Assembly: GCF_020892095.1 (NCBI RefSeq)
Contig: NZ_AP024845.1
Location: 186,001-250,000 of the forward strand
Origin: Claveliimonas bilis
GTDB lineage: Bacteria > Bacillota > Clostridia > Lachnospirales > Lachnospiraceae
DNA: 64,000 nucleotides
Reading direction: 5' to 3'
Below the pieces are notes generated by a model that had not been told where the DNA came from, searched no databases, and saw nothing but the letters and a program-made list of their open reading frames with translations. A program made the position numbers and the translations under genes. This document shows, in pieces, positions 10,665 to 37,463 of the stretch. The stretch's first letter is position 1, and each line of letters begins with the position of its first letter.

Positions 10665-11975
10665 TTAATCAAAGATTGTCTGACCATCCACTTCTGTGGT
10701 AAGAGCTTCCAGAGCTTTCTCTACGATGTGACGGCGAAGTTCTTTCTCTTCCGCCGGGTCAAGTGCCGGATTTCCAAGCGGATGAGGAATTGCGATCGCC
10801 GGAACGATTCTGTTTGCTCCTACTGTCATAGAAATCGGAGTAACTGTACAAACATGTACAACCGGGATTCCTGCTCTCTCGATTTCTTTTACCATCGTTG
10901 CACCGCAACGAGTACAGGTACCTCAAGTGGAGGTCAGGATAACTGCGTCAACTCCGTCTGCTTTCAATTTCTGTGAAAACTCATCTGCAAAAGCCTTTGC
11001 AGATGCTACGGCTGTACCGTTACCTGTTGTTGTATAGAACAGATGGTGAAGTTCACCGATCTTTCCTTCTTTTTCCATTTCACGAAGAACGTCTACCGGA
11101 AGAACACGGTCTGCATCTTCATTTGCATATACCGGGTCATATCCGCCGTGAGCAGTCTCATATGTATCTGCTGTCAGATCCATAACGCCTGTGATGTCAT
11201 ATTCTCCATAATGAGAAGCACTGGAGCTTTCGATGTGGTCCGGATTTCCCTTCGGAACAATACCGCCGGAAGTAACCAGAGCGATCTTTGCATGTGCAAG
11301 ATCTTTCACAGCCGGATTCGGAGCTACTTTGTCAAAGCTCGGCATCGGATATTCTGTCACATACGGCTTGTCAGCCAGTTTCTGAAGGAGCATCTTCACT
11401 GCACGTTTGGATCCTCTCTCCTTCTCAAAGAAGTTTACACGAATGCCGTTCGGCATATATCCTTCTTCACAGGAAGCGCCGATCTTTTCGCCTTTCGCAA
11501 GCTTCAGCGCAAGAGGAGCCATCTTGCCCACTGCATCTCTCATACCTGCTGCGCTGTTCTTTGTAGATACCATGTATACCTGGTTCTTGAACATATCAGC
11601 ACCTGGATTCTCTACATACATACCTGTAACTGCCGGAATACCAAGTTCTTCCTGAACCGCTGCTGCGATCGTTCCGCATGCAACGCCGTAACGTCCTGCA
11701 TTGAAAGCCGGTCCTGCAACAAATACGTCAGGCGCCTGCTCTTTTACCATAGCAAGGATATCTGCTTTTGCCTTGTCAAGGTTTTCATTGAAATAGGAGT
11801 CACCGCAGACGATTGTTGCAATAATTTCTGCTTCATCCTTAAAGTTCATATTGAACGCCATACCTGGTCCTACTACTTCGCCTACACGAAGCTCTGCCGG
11901 GTAATCTGCTTTTTCCTCTCCACCGATATTTGCGAAGAACTGATTAATGTAATGTACTACTTTTATTTTACTCAT
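10665..11975 (-). CDS. grdB: Glycine reductase complex component B, selenoprotein gamma subunit (UGA = Sec)
   Basis: 436 residues with one in-frame TGA at 10925-10923 read as selenocysteine 351. The centre reads ILTST-U-GTCTRCGATMV, giving the expected UxxCxxC motif. Start ATG at 11975 (MSKIKVVHYINQFFANIGG). GrdB is the substrate-specific selenoprotein that, with the pyruvoyl subunit made from GrdE, binds glycine as a Schiff base and transfers its carboxymethyl group to GrdA. The pairing with grdE directly upstream favours glycine, as opposed to sarcosine or betaine, as substrate. Standard gene callers would split it at the TGA. Confidence 0.96.
10896..10925 (-). promoter_or_regulatory. grdB selenocysteine UGA and candidate SECIS hairpin
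   Basis: The UGA is at 10925-10923. Twelve bases downstream the mRNA can fold CGTTGC-GGT-GCAACG (10910-10896), a compact stem with a G/U-containing loop at the distance expected for a bacterial SECIS element. Confidence 0.65.
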
Positions 11976-13813: not shown

Positions 13814-14036
13814 TTAAAAAGAAAAAGGACGTTGAAAACACTTCTGTGTGTTCATCGCCCTCTTCTGTCTTTTGTCTTATTGTCTGCGCAGAACACTTTT
13901 ACTCTGCCAGCTCTTACAAGATCCAGAATGCAGTACTTTCCCTAATCCTTTTGCCTGAAAGTTTCACCGCCCGGATGTTCACCCTCATCCTTGCGGTTTG
14001 CCTCTTCGGCGGCTGCGTCGTCACAGCTCTCTCGTA
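13814..14036 (-). promoter_or_regulatory. Glycine riboswitch with expression-platform terminator
   Basis: The minus strand shows the glycine aptamer core: CGAGAGAGCTG, CCGCCGAAGAGGCAAACCGC and GAAACTTTCAGGCAAAAGG (about 14036-13930). A second, weaker domain follows (TTCTGGATCTTG ... AAGACAAAAGACAGAA, about 13928-13863); its P1-like TTCTG/CAGAA arms pair but the CCGAAGGGGCAA core is lost. A GC-rich hairpin (13860-13827) and a long T-run (complement of 13814-13826) form an intrinsic terminator. It lies between agcS and grdX, on the grd side, so glycine binding should allow readthrough into the grd operon. Confidence 0.92.
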
Positions 14037-14110
14037 GGAAAAATCTACCTGCTGTCAAAATTTACTTATAGATTTTCTACATATATTTTACTAAATTATT
14101 CTATGTGTCT

Positions 14111-29125: not shown

Positions 29126-30226
29126 ATGCAAAACGCGAAACAGCCCGCTTTTCACGGAAGCGATCTGGAACAGATTGCAGAATATTACAATCTTCCACAA
29201 AAAGAGATCATAAGCTTTGGAGCCAATGTAAACCCGCTGGGACTTTCCGCCCGGGTCAAAGAAAAACTTGCTGAAAATCTGGATATTATTTCCAGATATC
29301 CCGACCGTAATTATACTACTTTAAAGGAAACCATATCCGCGTACTGCAAAATTCCTGTCCAGTACATCGTCACCGGCAACGGCTCCACAGAACTGATCTC
29401 TCTTTTAATCACACAGCTTAAAGCCTCTCATGCAGTCGTTATCGGTCCCACTTATTCTGAATACCAAAGAGAACTTGCCCTTACCGGCGGACATATCTCC
29501 TTCTATACATTAAAAGAATCGGAAAATTTCTGCCTGGATATCAATGATTTTATGGAACAGCTTCCGAAAGATGCAGATCTTATCATTCTATGCAACCCTA
29601 ACAATCCTACTTCTTCCGCTGTCCCTATCTCTGATTTGGAAAACCTCATAGCTTCCTGCCGCAAAAGAGGTGTTTTTGTTATGGTGGATGAGACATATGC
29701 AGAATTTGCCCCTTCTGTAGATGAGATCTCCGCCGTTCCTCTGACTCGCTCTTTCGACAACCTTATGGTTATCCGCGGCGTTTCCAAATTTTTTGCAGCT
29801 CCGGGCCTTCGCCTGGGCTATGGGATCACCAGCAGCAAGGACTTTCTTAAGGCTCTTCAGATTCATCAAAATCCCTGGAGCGTCAGCAGCATTGCTGCCT
29901 TTGCCGGGGAAGAAATGCTGAAGGATACCGGGTATATCGAAAAGACCCGGAACCTTATCTTTTCCGAGAAAAAGCGGATCTGTCAGGTTCTGGACGGCTT
30001 TCAAAATGCCAGATACTATGAGCCTTATGCCAATTTCATTTTAGTGCGTATCGAAAAGGAGGGACTCTCCTCCTTCCAGGTATTTGAGCATGCCATCCGG
30101 CAGAAAATGATGATCCGCGACTGTTCTTCTTTTGAAGAACTGGAGGGAGAATATATCCGTTTCTGTATTATGCGCCCCGAGGATAATGACCGGCTTTTGA
30201 AATGCCTGGGTGAAATTCTTGCATAA
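29126..30226 (+). CDS. PLP-dependent class I/II aminotransferase, CobD/HisC-like
   Basis: 366 residues. One of the few plus-strand genes; GGGGGA lies before the ATG. Fold-type I PLP enzyme: GNGSTELISLL (phosphate loop), CNPNNPT (157-161, Asn binding PLP), VDETYAEF (Asp188), and the Schiff-base Lys221 in GVSKFFAAPGLRLGYG. These fit the group containing L-threonine-phosphate decarboxylase (CobD) and histidinol-phosphate aminotransferase. No cobalamin or histidine genes are near, so the substrate is undecided. The opening FHGSDLEQIAEYYNL and SFGANVNPLGL are more like CobD. The gene is monocistronic with its own terminator. Confidence 0.85.
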   Translation: MQNAKQPAFHGSDLEQIAEYYNLPQKEIISFGANVNPLGLSARVKEKLAENLDIISRYPDRNYTTLKETISAYCKIPVQYIVTGNGSTELISLLITQLKASHAVVIGPTYSEYQRELALTGGHISFYTLKESENFCLDINDFMEQLPKDADLIILCNPNNPTSSAVPISDLENLIASCRKRGVFVMVDETYAEFAPSVDEISAVPLTRSFDNLMVIRGVSKFFAAPGLRLGYGITSSKDFLKALQIHQNPWSVSSIAAFAGEEMLKDTGYIEKTRNLIFSEKKRICQVLDGFQNARYYEPYANFILVRIEKEGLSSFQVFEHAIRQKMMIRDCSSFEELEGEYIRFCIMRPEDNDRLLKCLGEILA

Positions 30227-30310: not shown

Positions 30311-30865
30311 TTACTCCTGTCCACAGCGCCATTCTTCCCAGGATTTCGGTGTCCAGCCTTCAGGAACATCGTAATCCTCCAGTTCTCCTTCCATTTTCCG
30401 ATATCCGATCCGCATTGTACTGATCCGCCAGATACCGTCTTCACACTTGCGGAAATCATCACAGTATACCGAAAATCCTTCAGCGGTCTGTTTGCTTTCC
30501 CGGTAGGTATTGTTATCCTCATAAAGGAAAATTCCCCTTGCCTCTGTATCGCTTATAAGCCAGATCAACGGATTATGGCTCATATGCATTGTCATCATAT
30601 TCCGATTGACATACTTGGATCTCATTGCCTGATCCTTTGGAGCTGTTTTATTTTCCACATAGCACCGGTAGGTGAAGTCTTCTGTAAACAGATCACAGAT
30701 ATATTCCTCTTTTTTCATATCCATAGCCCAATAATAAAAGAACTGGGCATCTATGATCTTCTGCCTCTCACAGAGCTGCTGCGGCGTATAACTCTGGCTT
30801 CTGGCATGTTTCATAACTTCTACTACCATTTTTTTAATTGTCATATCCTGCTTAATTACTTTCAT
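30311..30865 (-). CDS. SnoaL/NTF2-like protein resembling bile acid 7-alpha-dehydratase (BaiE)
   Basis: 184 residues, a single NTF2-like cone domain with no signal peptide. Compared from memory with BaiE, the residues reported as catalytic can be lined up: Tyr44 and Asp49 (FFYYWAMDMKKEE; Tyr30/Asp35 with the same spacing of five) and His94 (TMHMSHNPLIWL; His83 in SMHMGHTPEI). The following region GIFLYEDNNTY also resembles the BaiE strand RWYLEDNLIF. A dehydratase on a steroid-like or other CoA/cyclic substrate is therefore possible. SnoaL folds are common and many are not dehydratases. It lies 95 bases downstream of the BaiCD/BaiH-like flavoenzyme on the same strand. Confidence 0.7.
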   Translation of the reverse strand: MKVIKQDMTIKKMVVEVMKHARSQSYTPQQLCERQKIIDAQFFYYWAMDMKKEEYICDLFTEDFTYRCYVENKTAPKDQAMRSKYVNRNMMTMHMSHNPLIWLISDTEARGIFLYEDNNTYRESKQTAEGFSVYCDDFRKCEDGIWRISTMRIGYRKMEGELEDYDVPEGWTPKSWEEWRCGQE

Positions 30866-30905
30866 TTTCTTCTCCCTTCTTTGCCTTTCCGATCATTCTT
30901 TTTTT

Positions 30906-30950
30906 ACGAAATCGCCAGCAGATCCAAAAGAATCTGTTGGCGATTTTCGT
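30906..30950. terminator. Strong hairpin between the flavoenzyme and the SnoaL-like gene
   Basis: Near-perfect arms ACGAAATCGCCAGCAGAT (30906-30923) and ATCTGTTGGCGATTTTCGT (30932-30950). On the minus strand the 3' arm ends GATTTCGT without a long T-run, so it may attenuate transcription and not stop it. Confidence 0.5.
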
Positions 30951-30960
30951 TCCCCGATTT

Positions 30961-32898
30961 TTATATTTCCAATGCGGCAAGATAGGCTTCATAAATCGTA
31001 TCCAGAGCCTTTCTTGCCCGTTTTGCGTCGCCGATCACATATACCGGTATTCCCAGCCTTTCACAGCATTCCTGGAGATCTGTACTGTCTTTTGCCCGGG
31101 AACCAGTAGCAATCACCACATAGTCCGCCGGAACTTCCATCGTTTCTCCCTTTACTTCCAGCACAACACTTTTTTCCCGAATTTCCTTACATGCTGCATT
31201 TACAATCTGGTGAATATGTCCTTGTTCCAGCTGGATCTGTACCGCTGTTTTCCTCATATGTCCCAGATCGATCCCAATACCCTCGCGCATTTCAACTACT
31301 GTCACATGGCAGCCCCGGCGCTCCAGATGCTCTGAGACTTCCAATCCTACCAGACCTCCGCCGATCACTACAACATTTCCGCTCATGGGAACTTTAGTTC
31401 CCGAGAGTACCTCTTTAGAACTCATAACATTTGCCTGATCAATACCTGCTATCGGTGGAACAAAAGGCACTGAACCAACTGCAACAACGACGACATCCGG
31501 CTTTTCCTTCTCAATAACTTCTGCAGTCACTTCGGTATTCAGGAAAATATCAATCCCTGACTCCATCGCTTTCTGGGCAGCCATTCTTCCGGCCATGCCA
31601 AAGTCATCCTTCCTCGGCGCGGTCCCCGCAAGCACAAACTGACCTCCCAGGGTTCCAGTTTTTTCATAAATAGCAGGTTTGTGTCCTCTTTGCTGAAGGA
31701 TATCCGCAATTTCCAGTCCGGCAATTCCACCGCCTGCAATCATGACACGTTTCGGTTTTTCGGCAGCCTGAACTTTCAGTTCTTCTTCCTCTCCTACCGC
31801 CGGATTTCTCATACAGCTGATATGATCTTTCTCCGGGTTGATAAAATAATCATAACACCCTTGGTCGCATCCCACACAATAATTAATCTGAGCCAGCTTG
31901 CCTTCCTTTGCTTTTTTACAGAAGTAAGGATCTGCCAGCTGTGCGCGGGACATGGCGATCAGGTCGGCTTTGTCCTCCTCCAGGATTTCTTCAGCAAACC
32001 CCGGCGTATTGATACGTCCGGACGGCATTGTCAACATTCCTGTCTCCTTTCGAATACGGGAAGCCGGCCCTACATTTATTCCTTTAGGAAGATCAATCGG
32101 AGGAATTTCATAAATCTGGGCACGGGTCAGGAAATTACCTCTGGAAATGTTCAGAACATCCACTCCCTCCCGGCCTGCCAGCTTACAAAATTCAATAACC
32201 TCCCCCTCTGTCAGACCATTTTCCAGATAATCGTCATGGCAGACAATCCTCATGAAAAGAGGCATCCCTTCCGGAATATTCTGACGAATAGCCCGGATAC
32301 ATTCCAAAGGAAATCTGCATCTGTTTTCAAAGCTACCTCCGTATTCATCTGTCCGGTGATTTATGCCTCCTGACAGAAAAACATGGGGCAGGTAGGTGTG
32401 CGCTGCATGAAATTCTACAGCGTCCATTCCTGCCTGTGCAGCTCTTCTGGCAGCTTCGCCATAAGCTTTCACAATGGAATGGATCCGTTCTTTACTCATT
32501 CCTTTTATACTTACTTTCCGTGAAAGCCTCATTTTTGAGGCAACTAAAATTTCAGCATCCGGATCGCTTCCCACAGCCAGCGACCCCTGCCACAGCTGCG
32601 GGCAGATCTTTCCTCCCGCCTCATGCACTGCATCTGCCAGTTTCTTCATCCCCGGAATATACTTGTCATCGCTCAAGGCAAGGAATCCTTTCGGCGCACT
32701 TGCCGCATCTACAGAACAGACTTCCACCGTATTCAGTCCCACACCGCCACGGGCACGTTCTACATGATATCTGATCAAGCGGTCAGTTACTTCTCTTCCA
32801 TCTCCTCCGACCATCCGGGTCCCCATTCCTGTCATCACTACCCGATTTTCCAACTCCATATCCCGGATACGGATAGGGGAAAACAATCGTTCAAACAT
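30961..32898 (-). CDS. FMN/[4Fe-4S]/FAD NADH:flavin oxidoreductase of the BaiCD/BaiH/2,4-dienoyl-CoA reductase family
   Basis: 645 residues. An N-terminal old-yellow-enzyme barrel (LFSPIRIRDMELENRVVM; EFHAAHTYLPHVFLSGGIN; RTDEYGGSFENRCRF) binds FMN. The cluster site CVGCDQGC plus a Cys 12 residues later has the Cx2Cx3Cx11C pattern. After about residue 380 come FAD- and NAD(P)-binding Rossmann domains (IAGGGIAGLEIA; VVIGGGLVGLEVSEHL) and the terminal YVIGDAKRARKA. Length and many segments resemble BaiCD (639) and BaiH (661), which reduce or oxidise the 3-oxo-delta4/delta6 bond of bile-acid CoA esters. Related enzymes act on enoyl-CoAs, enoates and xenobiotics, so the substrate is open. First gene of a pair with the SnoaL-like gene. 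Confidence 0.85.
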   Translation of the reverse strand: MFERLFSPIRIRDMELENRVVMTGMGTRMVGGDGREVTDRLIRYHVERARGGVGLNTVEVCSVDAASAPKGFLALSDDKYIPGMKKLADAVHEAGGKICPQLWQGSLAVGSDPDAEILVASKMRLSRKVSIKGMSKERIHSIVKAYGEAARRAAQAGMDAVEFHAAHTYLPHVFLSGGINHRTDEYGGSFENRCRFPLECIRAIRQNIPEGMPLFMRIVCHDDYLENGLTEGEVIEFCKLAGREGVDVLNISRGNFLTRAQIYEIPPIDLPKGINVGPASRIRKETGMLTMPSGRINTPGFAEEILEEDKADLIAMSRAQLADPYFCKKAKEGKLAQINYCVGCDQGCYDYFINPEKDHISCMRNPAVGEEEELKVQAAEKPKRVMIAGGGIAGLEIADILQQRGHKPAIYEKTGTLGGQFVLAGTAPRKDDFGMAGRMAAQKAMESGIDIFLNTEVTAEVIEKEKPDVVVVAVGSVPFVPPIAGIDQANVMSSKEVLSGTKVPMSGNVVVIGGGLVGLEVSEHLERRGCHVTVVEMREGIGIDLGHMRKTAVQIQLEQGHIHQIVNAACKEIREKSVVLEVKGETMEVPADYVVIATGSRAKDSTDLQECCERLGIPVYVIGDAKRARKALDTIYEAYLAALEI

Positions 32899-33190: not shown

Positions 33191-33234
33191 AAAATAACCC
33201 TCCAAACTGATAAATTTTACATCAGTTCGGAGGG
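33191..33234 (-). terminator. Terminator of the large surface-protein gene
   Basis: Minus-strand CCCTCCGAACTGAT (33234-33221) pairs with ATCAGTTTGGAGGG (33211-33198) apart from one mismatch, followed by TTATTTTATAG. It lies 47 bases after the stop codon. Confidence 0.8.
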
Positions 33235-33280
33235 CTGCACAAACTTCGAAATATTTCCTTAAATATAACCTATGATATCA

Positions 33281-36200
33281 CTATTTGCGGTATTTCCCTT
33301 TTGAACACACTGTAACTGCAATTCCGGCAAACGCCAAAATTCCTGCCGATACATAACCGGTAATCGGAGCGGTGTCACCTGTCCTTGCTGCCTTTTTATC
33401 AAGGGACACTTCTGCTCTATCCCCTGCAACTTCATCGGCATCTGCCTGCAATGCTGTCAGTATAGCCTGTGTCTTCTTATATTTCTCTTTTGCCTGTTCA
33501 TAAGCGGTTTCCGCCTCTTTTAAAGCAACTTCCTTCTCTTCTTTAATGGCAAGGGCTGCTACCACATTGGCATCCGCTTCATGCACGGCATCAATGTAAT
33601 CGTTCAGGTATGAGAAATCCGGATCCGTAATCGGGTTTGTCAAGGCATCCTCATAAGAAAGGAGGGTCGCCCGGAGGTTTAAGTCCTTCGCTTCCTCATA
33701 TGTTTTTTCCGCCTCTAGCAGCTTGTTGTTGGCATCCGCAAGGGCTACCGTTGCATCCACAAAGGCCTGCTGTGCCCCTGACAAGGTGTTAAATGCTCCA
33801 TCATAGGCTTTCTGTGCATCCCGAAGAGGGGTGATTTCTTCTACAATTGCATCGTATTCTTCTTTTGCCGTATCCGCAACTTCTTTTGCAGCATCCCGGA
33901 TTCCGGAAACGTTTTGGTATACCTCTCCTGCCGTCACTAAGTCAGAAGCAATCTTAGTCAGTTCTTTTTCTAGGTGTCCTATCTCATTTGATGCAGCTTT
34001 GATAGCATTTTCTGCCTTAGTTTTCTCTGCTTCTGCATCTTCCAAAGCCTTCTCTTTTATCTCCATATCCATTCGTTTGTCTAAGATATCTTTAAAGTAG
34101 GCATCTTCTATACGATTCTTTTCTTCAGCCGCTTCCATAAGGTCTTTTTCTTTTTCGGAATAAATGCTTACTGCATCATCGTAAGCTTTTTGTGGAGCTA
34201 CAAGCTCTTTCTTTGCATCTTCCAATTTCTTTTCCTTCTCCACTGTTACCGCATGATATTGGGATACCAGAACATTTGCATTGGCAAAATGTGCCTTTGC
34301 TTCATCCATAGATCCAATGGTAACTCCTGGCTGGTAGTAGAACAGCCCGTCCTTATATTGCCCTAAGGTATCGTAGAAAGCTTTCTCCTTTGCATCCTTT
34401 TCCGCCTTCTTAAACGCTGCATTTTCTTTTGCCTTCTGAAGTTCAGCATTCGCCGTATTTACTTTACCCTGTTTTTCCTCTACCGCTTTTTTTGCAGTTT
34501 CCGATTCTTTTTGCGCTGCTGCCACTTTTTCTTTTTCTGCCGTCACCTTACTTTCAGCTGTTTCTACAGCTTTACTCTTTGCTGTTACGTCAGATGATGC
34601 TGCATTGAAATCGGATGCTGCCTTTTCCGCATTTACCTTAGCAGTACTTTCTTCTTTCTGTTTATTGAAATAGTTCAAAGCTTTCGCATCCGCTTCTTTC
34701 TTTGCTGCAGTATAGTTCGCGTTAGCTACATCCAGAGCTTTCTTTGCTGTATCCAGAGCTTTCTTTGCCTGCTCAGTGATGGAAGGTGCATTGTAAAGGC
34801 TGTTATAGTAGTCCATGAACCGAGAATAGTAATCGTCAAACAAGTAATATCCATAATCTTCTGGGTTTTGATCTGCTGGGATGATACCCGCATTAAAAAA
34901 CACCTGACCGTGGCATGTACCGTATTTATTTGAATAGGTATTATATGCAAATCCTGTTGCCGTGTAATCTGAATCTATAATATTCAAATAATGCCCTGTC
35001 TGCCCGCCGTTTTGAGCTATATAATTCCTTTTCTCTTCATAATACCAGCCATCAAATGGATTTTTACTGCCACCATATCCCCAAGCAAGATTTTCTCCTA
35101 CAGTATAAAGCCCGGAATGGTTCTCAAGTACAGAGCCTATGTTGGTCTGCACCTGGGAAATAGCCATCAGCTGGTCAGATACATAAACTGGGTTTTCGCC
35201 GTCACGTCGGTTGCAGTGTTCCCCCTCCAAAAGCACGTCATAGTAACTCTTCAAAGTTTCTAAAGCAATCTTCATATTTTCCAAGGAGGTGGCATCCTTT
35301 GCACCCCCGATAGTAGTATACTGAGAATAGGATGGATTCGTCATCGCATCTGTTAATACATTAACGGCATCCTGGGACTTCATGGTTTCAAAAAAGCCAA
35401 GGGAGCCTTTTGCAATCTGGGCAGCGGCAGTGCTCTCCAACGCTTGTGCGTCTTTCAAAGCCTGCTGTGCCTCCTCATAATCTGTCTGTGCAGTATCCGC
35501 TTTCTTCTTAGACTCTTCTGCTGCTTTTTCTGCATTTTCCTTCTCTGTCAGGGCAGAAGCAGTATCCTTCTTTGCCTGCTCATACGTGTGGTTTGCATTA
35601 TCCATGGCCGTTTGGGCGTTGACCTTCGCGTTTTCTGCATCTGACAAGGCAGTATTTGCTTTTGCAAGCTCCCCTTCTGCCAACGTTAAAGACGACTGGG
35701 CAGCTGCAACTGCCTGATCTTTTTCTTTTTTCACTGCCTGGGCGCTTGCAAGCTCTCCGTTTGCTGTATCATATATGCCCTGCTTTTCTATCTGAACGGA
35801 TAAGGCAGAATCATATGTACCCTGTGCATTAATCGCCTCAATCTCCAAGTTGGCAAGGGTCTGTTCTGCATTCGCCTTTGTTTCCTCATCCCGGGCAGAA
35901 TTCACCGCTTCCTGGGCCTGGGCCACTTTCCCTTGTACTTCCTGAAGCGCTGCATAGGTGCGGTTTACTTCCGCTGTTGCGCGATCCAGCTCGCCTTGTG
36001 CTGCATTTACTTTTTCAACCGCCGCTGCATATTCCGGGGAATCTTCCAATGCGGAAGCAACGGCTTCGTCATAAACTTTTTTTGCTTCATCATAAGCAGC
36101 TTGTGCGGATACGATCACCTCTTCTGCTTCTGCCTTTGCCGCTTCTGCATCCTTTAATGCCTGCTGTGCATCGATATATTCCTGTGTGGAAGTCTCCTGG

Positions 36201-36778
36201 AGATTCTCCAGCTCATCAATCCTTGCCTGTGCATCTTTGACAGCCTGTTCCTTTTTTACGAGGTCATCATTAGCCTCATCAAGGGCATTCTTTTTCACAG
36301 TTACATCTTCCTCTGTAACCTTCACGGTTTCTTTGATTCCTTCCAACACCGTTTCTGCATCTTCCATAGCCTGCTGCGCCTTATCATAATCTTCCTGACG
36401 CTCTTTTAAGGCTGCTTCTGCTGCAAGCAGATTTTCACTGCTAGCATCCTTTAATAACCCGGCATTGTCAAACAATTCTTTGGCGTCTGATTGCGCTTTG
36501 GCAAATTGCTCCTTGGCGGTATCAACGGCCTGGTTACTTTTGTCAATGGCCGCAAGTGCATTTTTCGCTGCATCATCTGCTTCCTTTTTTGCCGTGTCAT
36601 ACTGTTTCTTAGCTTCCTGTTCCTCTTTTTCCGCTTTTGCGTTTGCGTCTTTTGCCTCACTTAAGCTGTTTGCCTCATCGGCAGCCTGGACGACCATTTG
36701 CATAGGAACACCCACTTGGGATGCTGCTACAGCAGCCAATGTTGCCGCTGTTGTTGCCTTCCATGCTCTCCTTTTCAT
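33281..36778 (-). CDS. Large secreted coiled-coil surface protein with central CAP/SCP domain and sortase-like tail
   Basis: 1,165 residues from ATG 36778 (AAGGAGG 9 bases upstream; the frame runs 20 codons further but without an SD). Signal peptide MKRRAWKATTAATLAAVAAS. Two Ala/Glu/Lys/Asp-rich coiled-coil blocks (about 35-425 and 660-1110, many AEKE/DAQKA-type heptads) flank a CAP domain near 440-640 (LENMKIALETLKSYYDVLL; VGENLAWGYGG; GQTGHYLNIIDSDYTATGFA; ...HGQVFFNAG). The C-terminus has ARTGDTAPI, a hydrophobic helix and a basic KGKYRK end, a variant of the PKTGD-type sorting signal without the Pro. It probably projects from the cell wall; the role of the CAP domain is unknown. It neighbours an IS256 remnant. 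Confidence 0.8.
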   Translation of the reverse strand: MKRRAWKATTAATLAAVAASQVGVPMQMVVQAADEANSLSEAKDANAKAEKEEQEAKKQYDTAKKEADDAAKNALAAIDKSNQAVDTAKEQFAKAQSDAKELFDNAGLLKDASSENLLAAEAALKERQEDYDKAQQAMEDAETVLEGIKETVKVTEEDVTVKKNALDEANDDLVKKEQAVKDAQARIDELENLQETSTQEYIDAQQALKDAEAAKAEAEEVIVSAQAAYDEAKKVYDEAVASALEDSPEYAAAVEKVNAAQGELDRATAEVNRTYAALQEVQGKVAQAQEAVNSARDEETKANAEQTLANLEIEAINAQGTYDSALSVQIEKQGIYDTANGELASAQAVKKEKDQAVAAAQSSLTLAEGELAKANTALSDAENAKVNAQTAMDNANHTYEQAKKDTASALTEKENAEKAAEESKKKADTAQTDYEEAQQALKDAQALESTAAAQIAKGSLGFFETMKSQDAVNVLTDAMTNPSYSQYTTIGGAKDATSLENMKIALETLKSYYDVLLEGEHCNRRDGENPVYVSDQLMAISQVQTNIGSVLENHSGLYTVGENLAWGYGGSKNPFDGWYYEEKRNYIAQNGGQTGHYLNIIDSDYTATGFAYNTYSNKYGTCHGQVFFNAGIIPADQNPEDYGYYLFDDYYSRFMDYYNSLYNAPSITEQAKKALDTAKKALDVANANYTAAKKEADAKALNYFNKQKEESTAKVNAEKAASDFNAASSDVTAKSKAVETAESKVTAEKEKVAAAQKESETAKKAVEEKQGKVNTANAELQKAKENAAFKKAEKDAKEKAFYDTLGQYKDGLFYYQPGVTIGSMDEAKAHFANANVLVSQYHAVTVEKEKKLEDAKKELVAPQKAYDDAVSIYSEKEKDLMEAAEEKNRIEDAYFKDILDKRMDMEIKEKALEDAEAEKTKAENAIKAASNEIGHLEKELTKIASDLVTAGEVYQNVSGIRDAAKEVADTAKEEYDAIVEEITPLRDAQKAYDGAFNTLSGAQQAFVDATVALADANNKLLEAEKTYEEAKDLNLRATLLSYEDALTNPITDPDFSYLNDYIDAVHEADANVVAALAIKEEKEVALKEAETAYEQAKEKYKKTQAILTALQADADEVAGDRAEVSLDKKAARTGDTAPITGYVSAGILAFAGIAVTVCSKGKYRK

Positions 36779-36951
36779 CTTAAATTTCCTCCTTGTTTCA
36801 AATACTCTATTTAAAGGATGAATTCCTGATGCAAGCAACTCAAGTAAGACCCACGGATTTTACATCCCTCTTTACTATAGCAAACTGACTTTTGTTCCTA
36901 CTTTTTAGCTAATCTCCCCATTTGCACACTTATATCTATAATCTGCCACAA

Positions 36952-37160: not shown

Positions 37161-37463
37161 TCATCGCAACAATAGCCGGGCATGCAATAGAAATTCCATA
37201 GAGCCATAGCTGCTGTTTACACATTTACGTTTGTAACCATTCCGGTAATCGTCATTATCTGAACGCTCAGATTTTTCGTACCCAAGAGGATCCTCCATTT
37301 CTGCTTCCATCATTTCTTTGATTGTTCCGCCAAGTAGATCCTTGAGAGCATCCTGAATATCTTCGGCTGTCTGAATATCGTATTCTTCCAGTAGCTGATG
37401 GATAATGTTACGTTTCCCTTCTGTCATTTGTACCCGATGGACAGGTTTCTTTTGTTTTGCCAT
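37161..37463 (-). pseudogene. IS256-family (mutator-type) transposase, 5' fragment
   Basis: 100 codons, of which the first 83 or so (MAKQKKPVHRVQMTEGKRNI ... NDDYRNGYKRKCVNSSYGSME) match the N-terminus of IS256-family transposases, normally about 400 residues. The homology breaks at SSYGSME and a short unrelated tail (FLLHARLLLR) leads to a stop. The DDE catalytic domain is missing, so the element is dead. Upstream, GTGTGAAACTTTTTCTGT (about 37525-37545) resembles an IS256-type terminal repeat. The other end was not found, consistent with a deletion that removed the 3' part. It marks a past insertion next to the surface-protein gene. Confidence 0.8.

Follow-up and report, generated by a model that had tools for sequence, protein, structure and literature searches.

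We analysed a stretch of 64,000 nucleotides from Claveliimonas bilis (contig NZ_AP024845.1, positions 186,001 to 250,000; hereafter the window), in which a gene for a large flavoenzyme is followed, after a gap of 95 bases, by a gene for a small SnoaL-like protein. The host genome is a single contig of 3,042,110 bases and belongs to Eubacterium sp. c-25 (AP024845), a human isolate known as a deoxycholate producer from cholate (PMC8623032). A sequence-only reading of the same DNA had described a 645-residue flavoenzyme ahead of a SnoaL protein, and we recovered both open reading frames (ORFs) on the minus strand and confirmed their domains. The pair is laid out as follows:

30961..32898, minus strand: flavoenzyme gene, 645 residues, an old-yellow-enzyme-type oxidoreductase with flavin mononucleotide, iron-sulphur and flavin adenine dinucleotide (FMN/FeS/FAD) sites, of the BaiCD/steroid 5beta-reductase superclade (from domains, NF041087, trees and active-site columns)
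30906..30950, minus strand: strong hairpin between the flavoenzyme gene and baiI, -26 kcal/mol, z -4.67, without a T run
30311..30865, minus strand: baiI orthologue, 184 residues, SnoaL_4 (Pfam) and NTF2-like, with Tyr44-Asp49-His94; predicted bile-acid 7beta-dehydratase (from Pfam, clade, triad and fold)

The SnoaL protein is, with very little doubt, BaiI. Against sequences of the PDB it matched the BaiE structures best (E 1.5e-4), and its Tyr44, Asp49 and His94 align with Tyr30, Asp35 and His83 of BaiE, which we take to be the catalytic residues of that enzyme. The earlier reading had drawn the same alignment, and the triad proved invariant in all 13 aligned BaiI/BaiE-type sequences. That reading had also called the protein BaiE-like, a label that has to be corrected: in our trees it groups with BaiI of Clostridium scindens, G085, G384, Sporofaciens musculi and others with support of 100/100, apart from BaiE. 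Placement outside the BaiE clade in two trees, together with only 30% identity to the host's own BaiE, ruled out BaiE as its identity. The closest counterpart in C. scindens ATCC 35704 (G323) is the 184-residue protein encoded directly after baiH (49.2% identity over 179 residues), which is that genome's best match to the window protein. In the host genome a BaiI profile gave two matches only, the window gene at 290 bits and BaiE at 43 bits. Song et al. (2021) list the bai genes of c-25 as EUBC25_24880-24960 (nine tags) and EUBC25_02220, and place baiI "in a separate chromosomal region" (PMC8623032, section 3.4). By a crude gene count the window gene is number 215 from the contig start, near tag 0222. 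Since it belongs to the BaiI clade, is the sole BaiI match besides BaiE and has a gene number close to the tag, it is almost certainly EUBC25_02220, like which it is a detached gene of the same strain.

Compared with baiI of C. scindens ATCC 35704 (L035:11490-12044, the last gene of the bai operon), the window gene shares length, SnoaL_4 domain, 49% identity, the Tyr/Asp/His triad and the clade. The two differ in setting, as the C. scindens gene is operon-borne directly after baiH whereas c-25 baiI lies far from the bai cluster beside a different flavoenzyme. They also differ in sequence, with MHMGH in C. scindens against MHMSH in the window form and a two-residue insertion in the window protein. 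The insertion is common to the detached BaiI of G779 (Candidatus Limivicinus), the closest BaiI found outside the species (61% identity); the 12-kb stretch that holds the G779 gene (L094:9123-9716) contains no further bai gene. A structure model of the window BaiI, built from 13 sequences (mean pLDDT, the predicted local distance difference test score, 73), was used for a fold search, which recovered the NTF2 fold and placed BaiE structures with the best matches (4leh, Z 16.2, 135 residues, 2.6 Å); the top matches by Z were a mixture in which a dehydratase is not separable from an isomerase or a binding protein.

BaiI is rare and travels with the bai genes. At E<=1e-5 the window protein matched 5 of 397 family genomes, all five of which also have BaiE and BaiCD, and a class-wide draw of 381 genomes yielded one match, the host itself. 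Strong profile matches (>250 bits) were obtained in 11 of the 13 BaiE-bearing genomes, the two without being G777 and G780. The gene stands directly after that for BaiH, another flavoenzyme, in six of nine other BaiI neighbourhoods (C. scindens, G085, G384, L015, L016 and L017); L016 is the S. musculi stretch, for which baiI has been reported just downstream of baiH (PMC8623032). In addition to BaiI and BaiE, G778 encodes a much diverged BaiI-like protein (L099:6813-7310).

The sequence-only reading had found no other bai genes nearby, which is correct within the window but misleading for the genome. While the pair lies at C1:0.216 Mb of the host contig, a bai cluster of nine genes lies at C1:2.62 Mb (L011). 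One strand carries a coenzyme A (CoA) transferase, a major facilitator superfamily transporter, a CoA ligase, a short-chain dehydrogenase/reductase, a 199-residue protein, an AraC regulator and a BaiH-type flavoenzyme; the divergent strand carries a BaiCD-type flavoenzyme (L011:13819-15753) and then BaiE. The CoA ligase passes the BaiB model (868.8 against a cut-off of 650), BaiE and BaiCD are 55% and 54% identical to their C. scindens counterparts, and the nine genes match the nine tags EUBC25_24880-24960. In c-25 grown with cholate, expression of baiB, baiCD and baiH rose 218.8-, 291.8- and 13.9-fold (PMC8623032). The proposed link of the pair to bile-acid 7-dehydroxylation holds, and more strongly than had been claimed, for c-25 is known to 7-dehydroxylate and carries a complete bai cluster. 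The accompanying idea of an orphan reductase-dehydratase pair serving a different steroid, terpenoid or aromatic, unrelated to bile acids, could appeal to the lack of any further bai gene among the annotated window neighbours and to flavoenzyme specificity residues that fit neither known clade (see below). We consider it very improbable in view of the BaiI clade membership, the full cluster in the host and the deoxycholate-producing phenotype: the pair reads as a detached piece of the host's bai set, with a baiI already published as detached.

The flavoenzyme is harder to place. It combines the Pfam domains Oxidored_FMN and Pyr_redox_2 with the cysteine stretch of an iron-sulphur site, the domain order of BaiCD from C. 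scindens (L035:3430-5349) and c-25, and it belongs to the superclade of BaiCD and steroid 5beta-reductases. It is 43.7% identical to C. scindens BaiCD, 40% to host BaiCD and 32.6% to c-25 BaiH. We could rule it out as the host's baiE-linked BaiCD, which is a separate gene in the main cluster and distinct by identity and tree, and as the host BaiH, from the low identity and a position outside the BaiH clade in two trees. Its nearest relatives are 49-57% identical; the best of those in the 397 family genomes reach 50-57%, several of them within frames of 1,156-1,172 residues; 5 of the 15 relatives placed in the trees are fused enzymes, and in the two fused relatives that were scanned the extra part matches Epimerase and 3Beta_HSD. 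Fused 5beta-reductase/3beta-hydroxysteroid dehydrogenase/isomerase (3beta-HSDH/I) enzymes have been described as a hallmark of steroid-hormone reductases (PMC12238238). In a first tree the flavoenzyme grouped with hormone-reductase-like relatives (98), and that set joined BaiCD (100). In a second tree with the 15 relatives it again grouped with them (100/99.7), in the outermost position and on a long branch, and the BaiCD clade (100/100) formed without it; an approximately unbiased (AU) test did not reject a grouping of the flavoenzyme with BaiCD (p 0.189). Both trees were built without the steroid-hormone 5beta-reductase ci2350 itself, the fused relatives of G250 and G170, whose ORFs run off their stretches, and duplicate loci, and the second also without rows L014, L024 and L038.

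In ci2350, N166 and S171 are decisive for specificity: Asn and Ser are needed for full progesterone activity, and Glu at the S171 position is the residue of the bile-acid clade (PMC12238238). At the corresponding positions, as read from the alignment around a conserved Tyr, the flavoenzyme has Thr168 and Val173, whereas the 11 BaiCD sequences have Thr or Ser at the first position and Glu at the second in every case; in most of the relatives the two residues are Asn and Ser. The enzyme keeps Tyr169 and the SRGN motif. Given its grouping with the hormone relatives, the AU result and Thr168/Val173, we file it in neither clade. The earlier description as BaiCD/BaiH-like holds for the superclade; in the best tree the enzyme lies outside the BaiCD and BaiH clades, as an early branch beside the hormone 5beta-reductases. 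Placement far from the Bai clades had been named in advance as the finding that would speak against the proposal; by phylogeny the SnoaL protein lies inside one of them and the flavoenzyme partly removed. The flavoenzyme quite probably acts on a 3-oxo-Delta4 steroid.

The NCBIfam equivalog model for BaiCD, NF041087, does not settle the matter. The flavoenzyme passes it with 973.9 bits (cut-off 825), the highest score of those scanned, ahead of C. scindens BaiCD (892.4), while the baiE-linked BaiCD of c-25 (805.4) and BaiCD of S. musculi (L016:8043-9977; 796.6) fall under the cut-off. As a paralogue thus scores above a genuine BaiCD and the c-25 BaiCD is rejected, the model fails to tell the clades apart, and the high score of the flavoenzyme points to a flaw in the model and does not argue for BaiCD. 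For the same reason, metagenome tallies of baiCD may lump hormone reductases with bile-acid ones.

A second genome of the species (G296) carries the pair as a block 99.6% identical and in the same gene order. Its flavoenzyme gene differs from that of the host by 10 bases, with one residue change, and the gap by two bases; baiI is unchanged. The flanks differ, with about 3.9 kb more after baiI and another upstream neighbourhood in G296 that contains transposase-looking ORFs (labelled by eye). This difference in the surrounding DNA indicates that the region is rearranging. The two genes are neighbours in each of the two genomes examined for the species and were seen together nowhere else; a class-wide search for closer pairs gave none, the flavoenzyme being matched at E<=1e-150 in 3 of 371 genomes, host included. 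The intergenic hairpin is absent from the list produced by our terminator scan and, having no T run, is not a standard terminator, which makes co-transcription of the two genes likely, as a prediction. Such a stable structure might have a role in RNA processing or attenuation. Taken as a whole, we lean slightly towards the flavoenzyme and BaiI working in one route.

The adjacency bears on another explanation, in which the flavoenzyme would be a steroid-hormone Delta4-3-ketosteroid 5beta-reductase in its own right, placed beside baiI by chance, with BaiI serving the main bai cluster in trans. The single set formed with the 15 relatives, five of them fused and both scanned ones carrying 3Beta_HSD/Epimerase, would fit it; 15 genomes have been reported to carry both BaiCD and hormone reductases (PMC12238238), and in two congeneric genomes a fused enzyme stands about 13 kb from BaiCD and not beside baiI. 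We nevertheless regard this explanation as unlikely, because the enzyme, which is itself not fused to a 3beta-HSDH/I domain, departs from the residues usual in the relatives at both specificity positions, sits on a long branch outside them and is kept next to baiI in both genomes of the species. The fused 5beta-reductase/3beta-HSD-type enzymes of the two congeneric genomes, G402 and G404, are located at L068:8482-11946 and L070:8106-11570, with other genes between them and the bai cluster.

In the published pathway, a 3-oxo-Delta4 intermediate made by BaiA and BaiCD loses its 7alpha-hydroxyl through BaiE, and the diene is reduced by BaiH and BaiCD. Where the hydroxyl is 7beta, the step at 3-oxo-Delta4-ursodeoxycholate (UDCA) is attributed to BaiH, with BaiI as a hypothetical 7beta-dehydratase (PMC10382948). 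Culture data show 7beta-dehydroxylation of UDCA by C. scindens, which has BaiI, with cholate present (PMC11293179). The title of a 1985 paper, cited among the c-25 studies by Song et al. (PMC8623032), reports 7beta-dehydroxylation by Eubacterium strain C-25; one review uses that citation for strain 36S. We propose that the pair is a detached accessory module for bile-acid 7-dehydroxylation, with the flavoenzyme acting at the 3-oxo-Delta4 step and BaiI removing a 7-hydroxyl, most likely 7beta, a reading to which we assign a probability of roughly 50%. The flavoenzyme would catalyse the reversible step between 3-oxo and 3-oxo-Delta4 forms, as BaiCD, BaiH and the 5beta-reductases do, and BaiI would then eliminate water at C7 of the 3-oxo-Delta4 intermediate. 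Its likeliest substrate would carry a 7beta-hydroxyl (UDCA or ursocholate type); the 3-oxo-Delta4,6 compound so formed may then be reduced to lithocholate or deoxycholate by the BaiH, BaiCD and BaiA homologues of the main cluster. Substrate, direction, cooperation and 7beta specificity are what we infer in this scheme; reduction and dehydration of a steroid by the pair, as the sequence-only reading had it, is plausible.

Several observations weigh against this proposal. The nearest relatives of the flavoenzyme are probably steroid-hormone reductases, and a SnoaL neighbour was found beside none of its 15 tree-placed relatives in the stretches read. BaiI is not beside a flavoenzyme in the remaining three of the nine neighbourhoods (L018, L020 and L094), and in the window a strong hairpin separates the two genes. 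A comparison of 20-mers revealed no convincing motif common to the promoters of the pair and of the bai cluster: in 12 comparisons, each set against the best of 10 single-base shuffles, the best common 20-mers were alike at no more than 16 of 20 positions and lay under the best shuffle in 11, the twelfth (flavoenzyme upstream against AraC upstream, minus strand) exceeding it by one base. With the 20-mers at shuffle level, we dropped a shared regulatory motif. As to BaiI, its role still awaited verification in the literature in 2025, and Sphingobium homologues yielded no active 7beta-dehydratase when expressed (PMC12175502). A 1982 title, finally, connects the 7-dehydroxylation of UDCA with assistance by Bacteroides, possibly a sign that epimerisation comes first.

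A bolder version of the proposal is a stand-alone 7beta-dehydroxylation cassette, in which the flavoenzyme, not BaiH, would supply the 3-oxo-Delta4 7beta-hydroxy form to BaiI as a true 7beta-dehydratase. We hold it to be doubtful; if true, this gut species would convert UDCA to lithocholate through a genetically separate and separately regulated branch.

For BaiI itself, 7beta specificity is an evenly balanced call. It might instead be a real bai protein acting on another hydroxyl or substrate, or an isomerase, with the 7beta step falling to another protein. The NTF2 fold occurs in dehydratases and isomerases, among other proteins, the function of BaiI is a hypothesis only (PMC10382948, PMC12175502), and there is another contender in a third SnoaL/NTF2-like family (alignment A2), which has the same Tyr-x4-Asp and His pattern as BaiE. 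Members of it occur in 10 of the 13 genomes with BaiE; among 378 genomes of the bacterial family three have one, and each of these three also has BaiE. In S. musculi, G402 and G404 the gene comes directly after that for a BaiF homologue; in G779 it is flanked by BaiB and a BaiG-type transporter, and in L018 and L020 its neighbour is BaiI. We nevertheless rate a non-7beta BaiI as rather improbable, since BaiI keeps the whole BaiE triad and travels with the bai genes, and since the third family was not found in the BaiI-carrying genomes G085 and G384. The third family, for which we found no name in the open-access literature, is a further candidate for a dehydratase step of the bile-acid pathway. 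Its members include:

L012:4218-5012 (host C1:2640226-2640735), minus strand: third SnoaL family
L096:10513-11034, minus strand: third SnoaL family
L069:14459-15049: third SnoaL family
L071:13772-14293: third SnoaL family
L093:9310-9834: third SnoaL family
L018:11754-12248: third SnoaL family
L020:11757-12251: third SnoaL family
L092:8801-9337, minus strand: third SnoaL family

Ursodeoxycholate is in wide use as a drug and can be converted by gut bacteria to toxic lithocholate. The enzyme that removes its 7beta-hydroxyl is still unproven, BaiI being a hypothesis, and the pair is a concrete candidate for that step in a strain with title-reported 7beta-dehydroxylation. With baiI detached and accompanied by a flavoenzyme of its own, the 7beta step becomes testable apart from the 7alpha operon. 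The baiI gene of c-25 is already in print (PMC8623032); new here are the flavoenzyme beside it, with specificity residues that fit neither clade, the adjacency kept in both genomes of the species, and the pitfall for annotation. The main text of PMC8623032, as far as it was accessible, does not discuss a flavoenzyme beside baiI: "oxidoreductase" is absent and "flavin" occurs only in a reference title. Nor did we find the flavoenzyme-baiI pair elsewhere in the open-access literature, a search that left most subscription journals outside and included no locus-tag search.

The pair is bordered in the window by the following features:

33281-36838: 1185-residue protein with a weak CAP domain, preceding the flavoenzyme gene
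33196..33236, minus strand: terminator-like stem of 17 pairs upstream of the flavoenzyme gene; such sites were not more numerous in the scan than in shuffles
29126-30226, strand opposite to the pair: CobD-like aminotransferase, neighbour of the pair

The stem probably terminates the preceding 1185-residue gene, in which case the pair begins its own transcript after it; a sigma-70 scan upstream of the flavoenzyme gene gave no convincing promoter. About 4 kb from the pair, a 100-residue ORF at 37161-37463 (minus strand) has a partial match to a Mutator-family transposase. Farther away in the window, at 10885-10922 and 13933-14046 (both minus strand), we noted a SECIS_4 element (66.4 bits) bordering the ORF 10923-11975 and a glycine riboswitch nearby; the SECIS_4 element suggests that the window contains selenoprotein genes.

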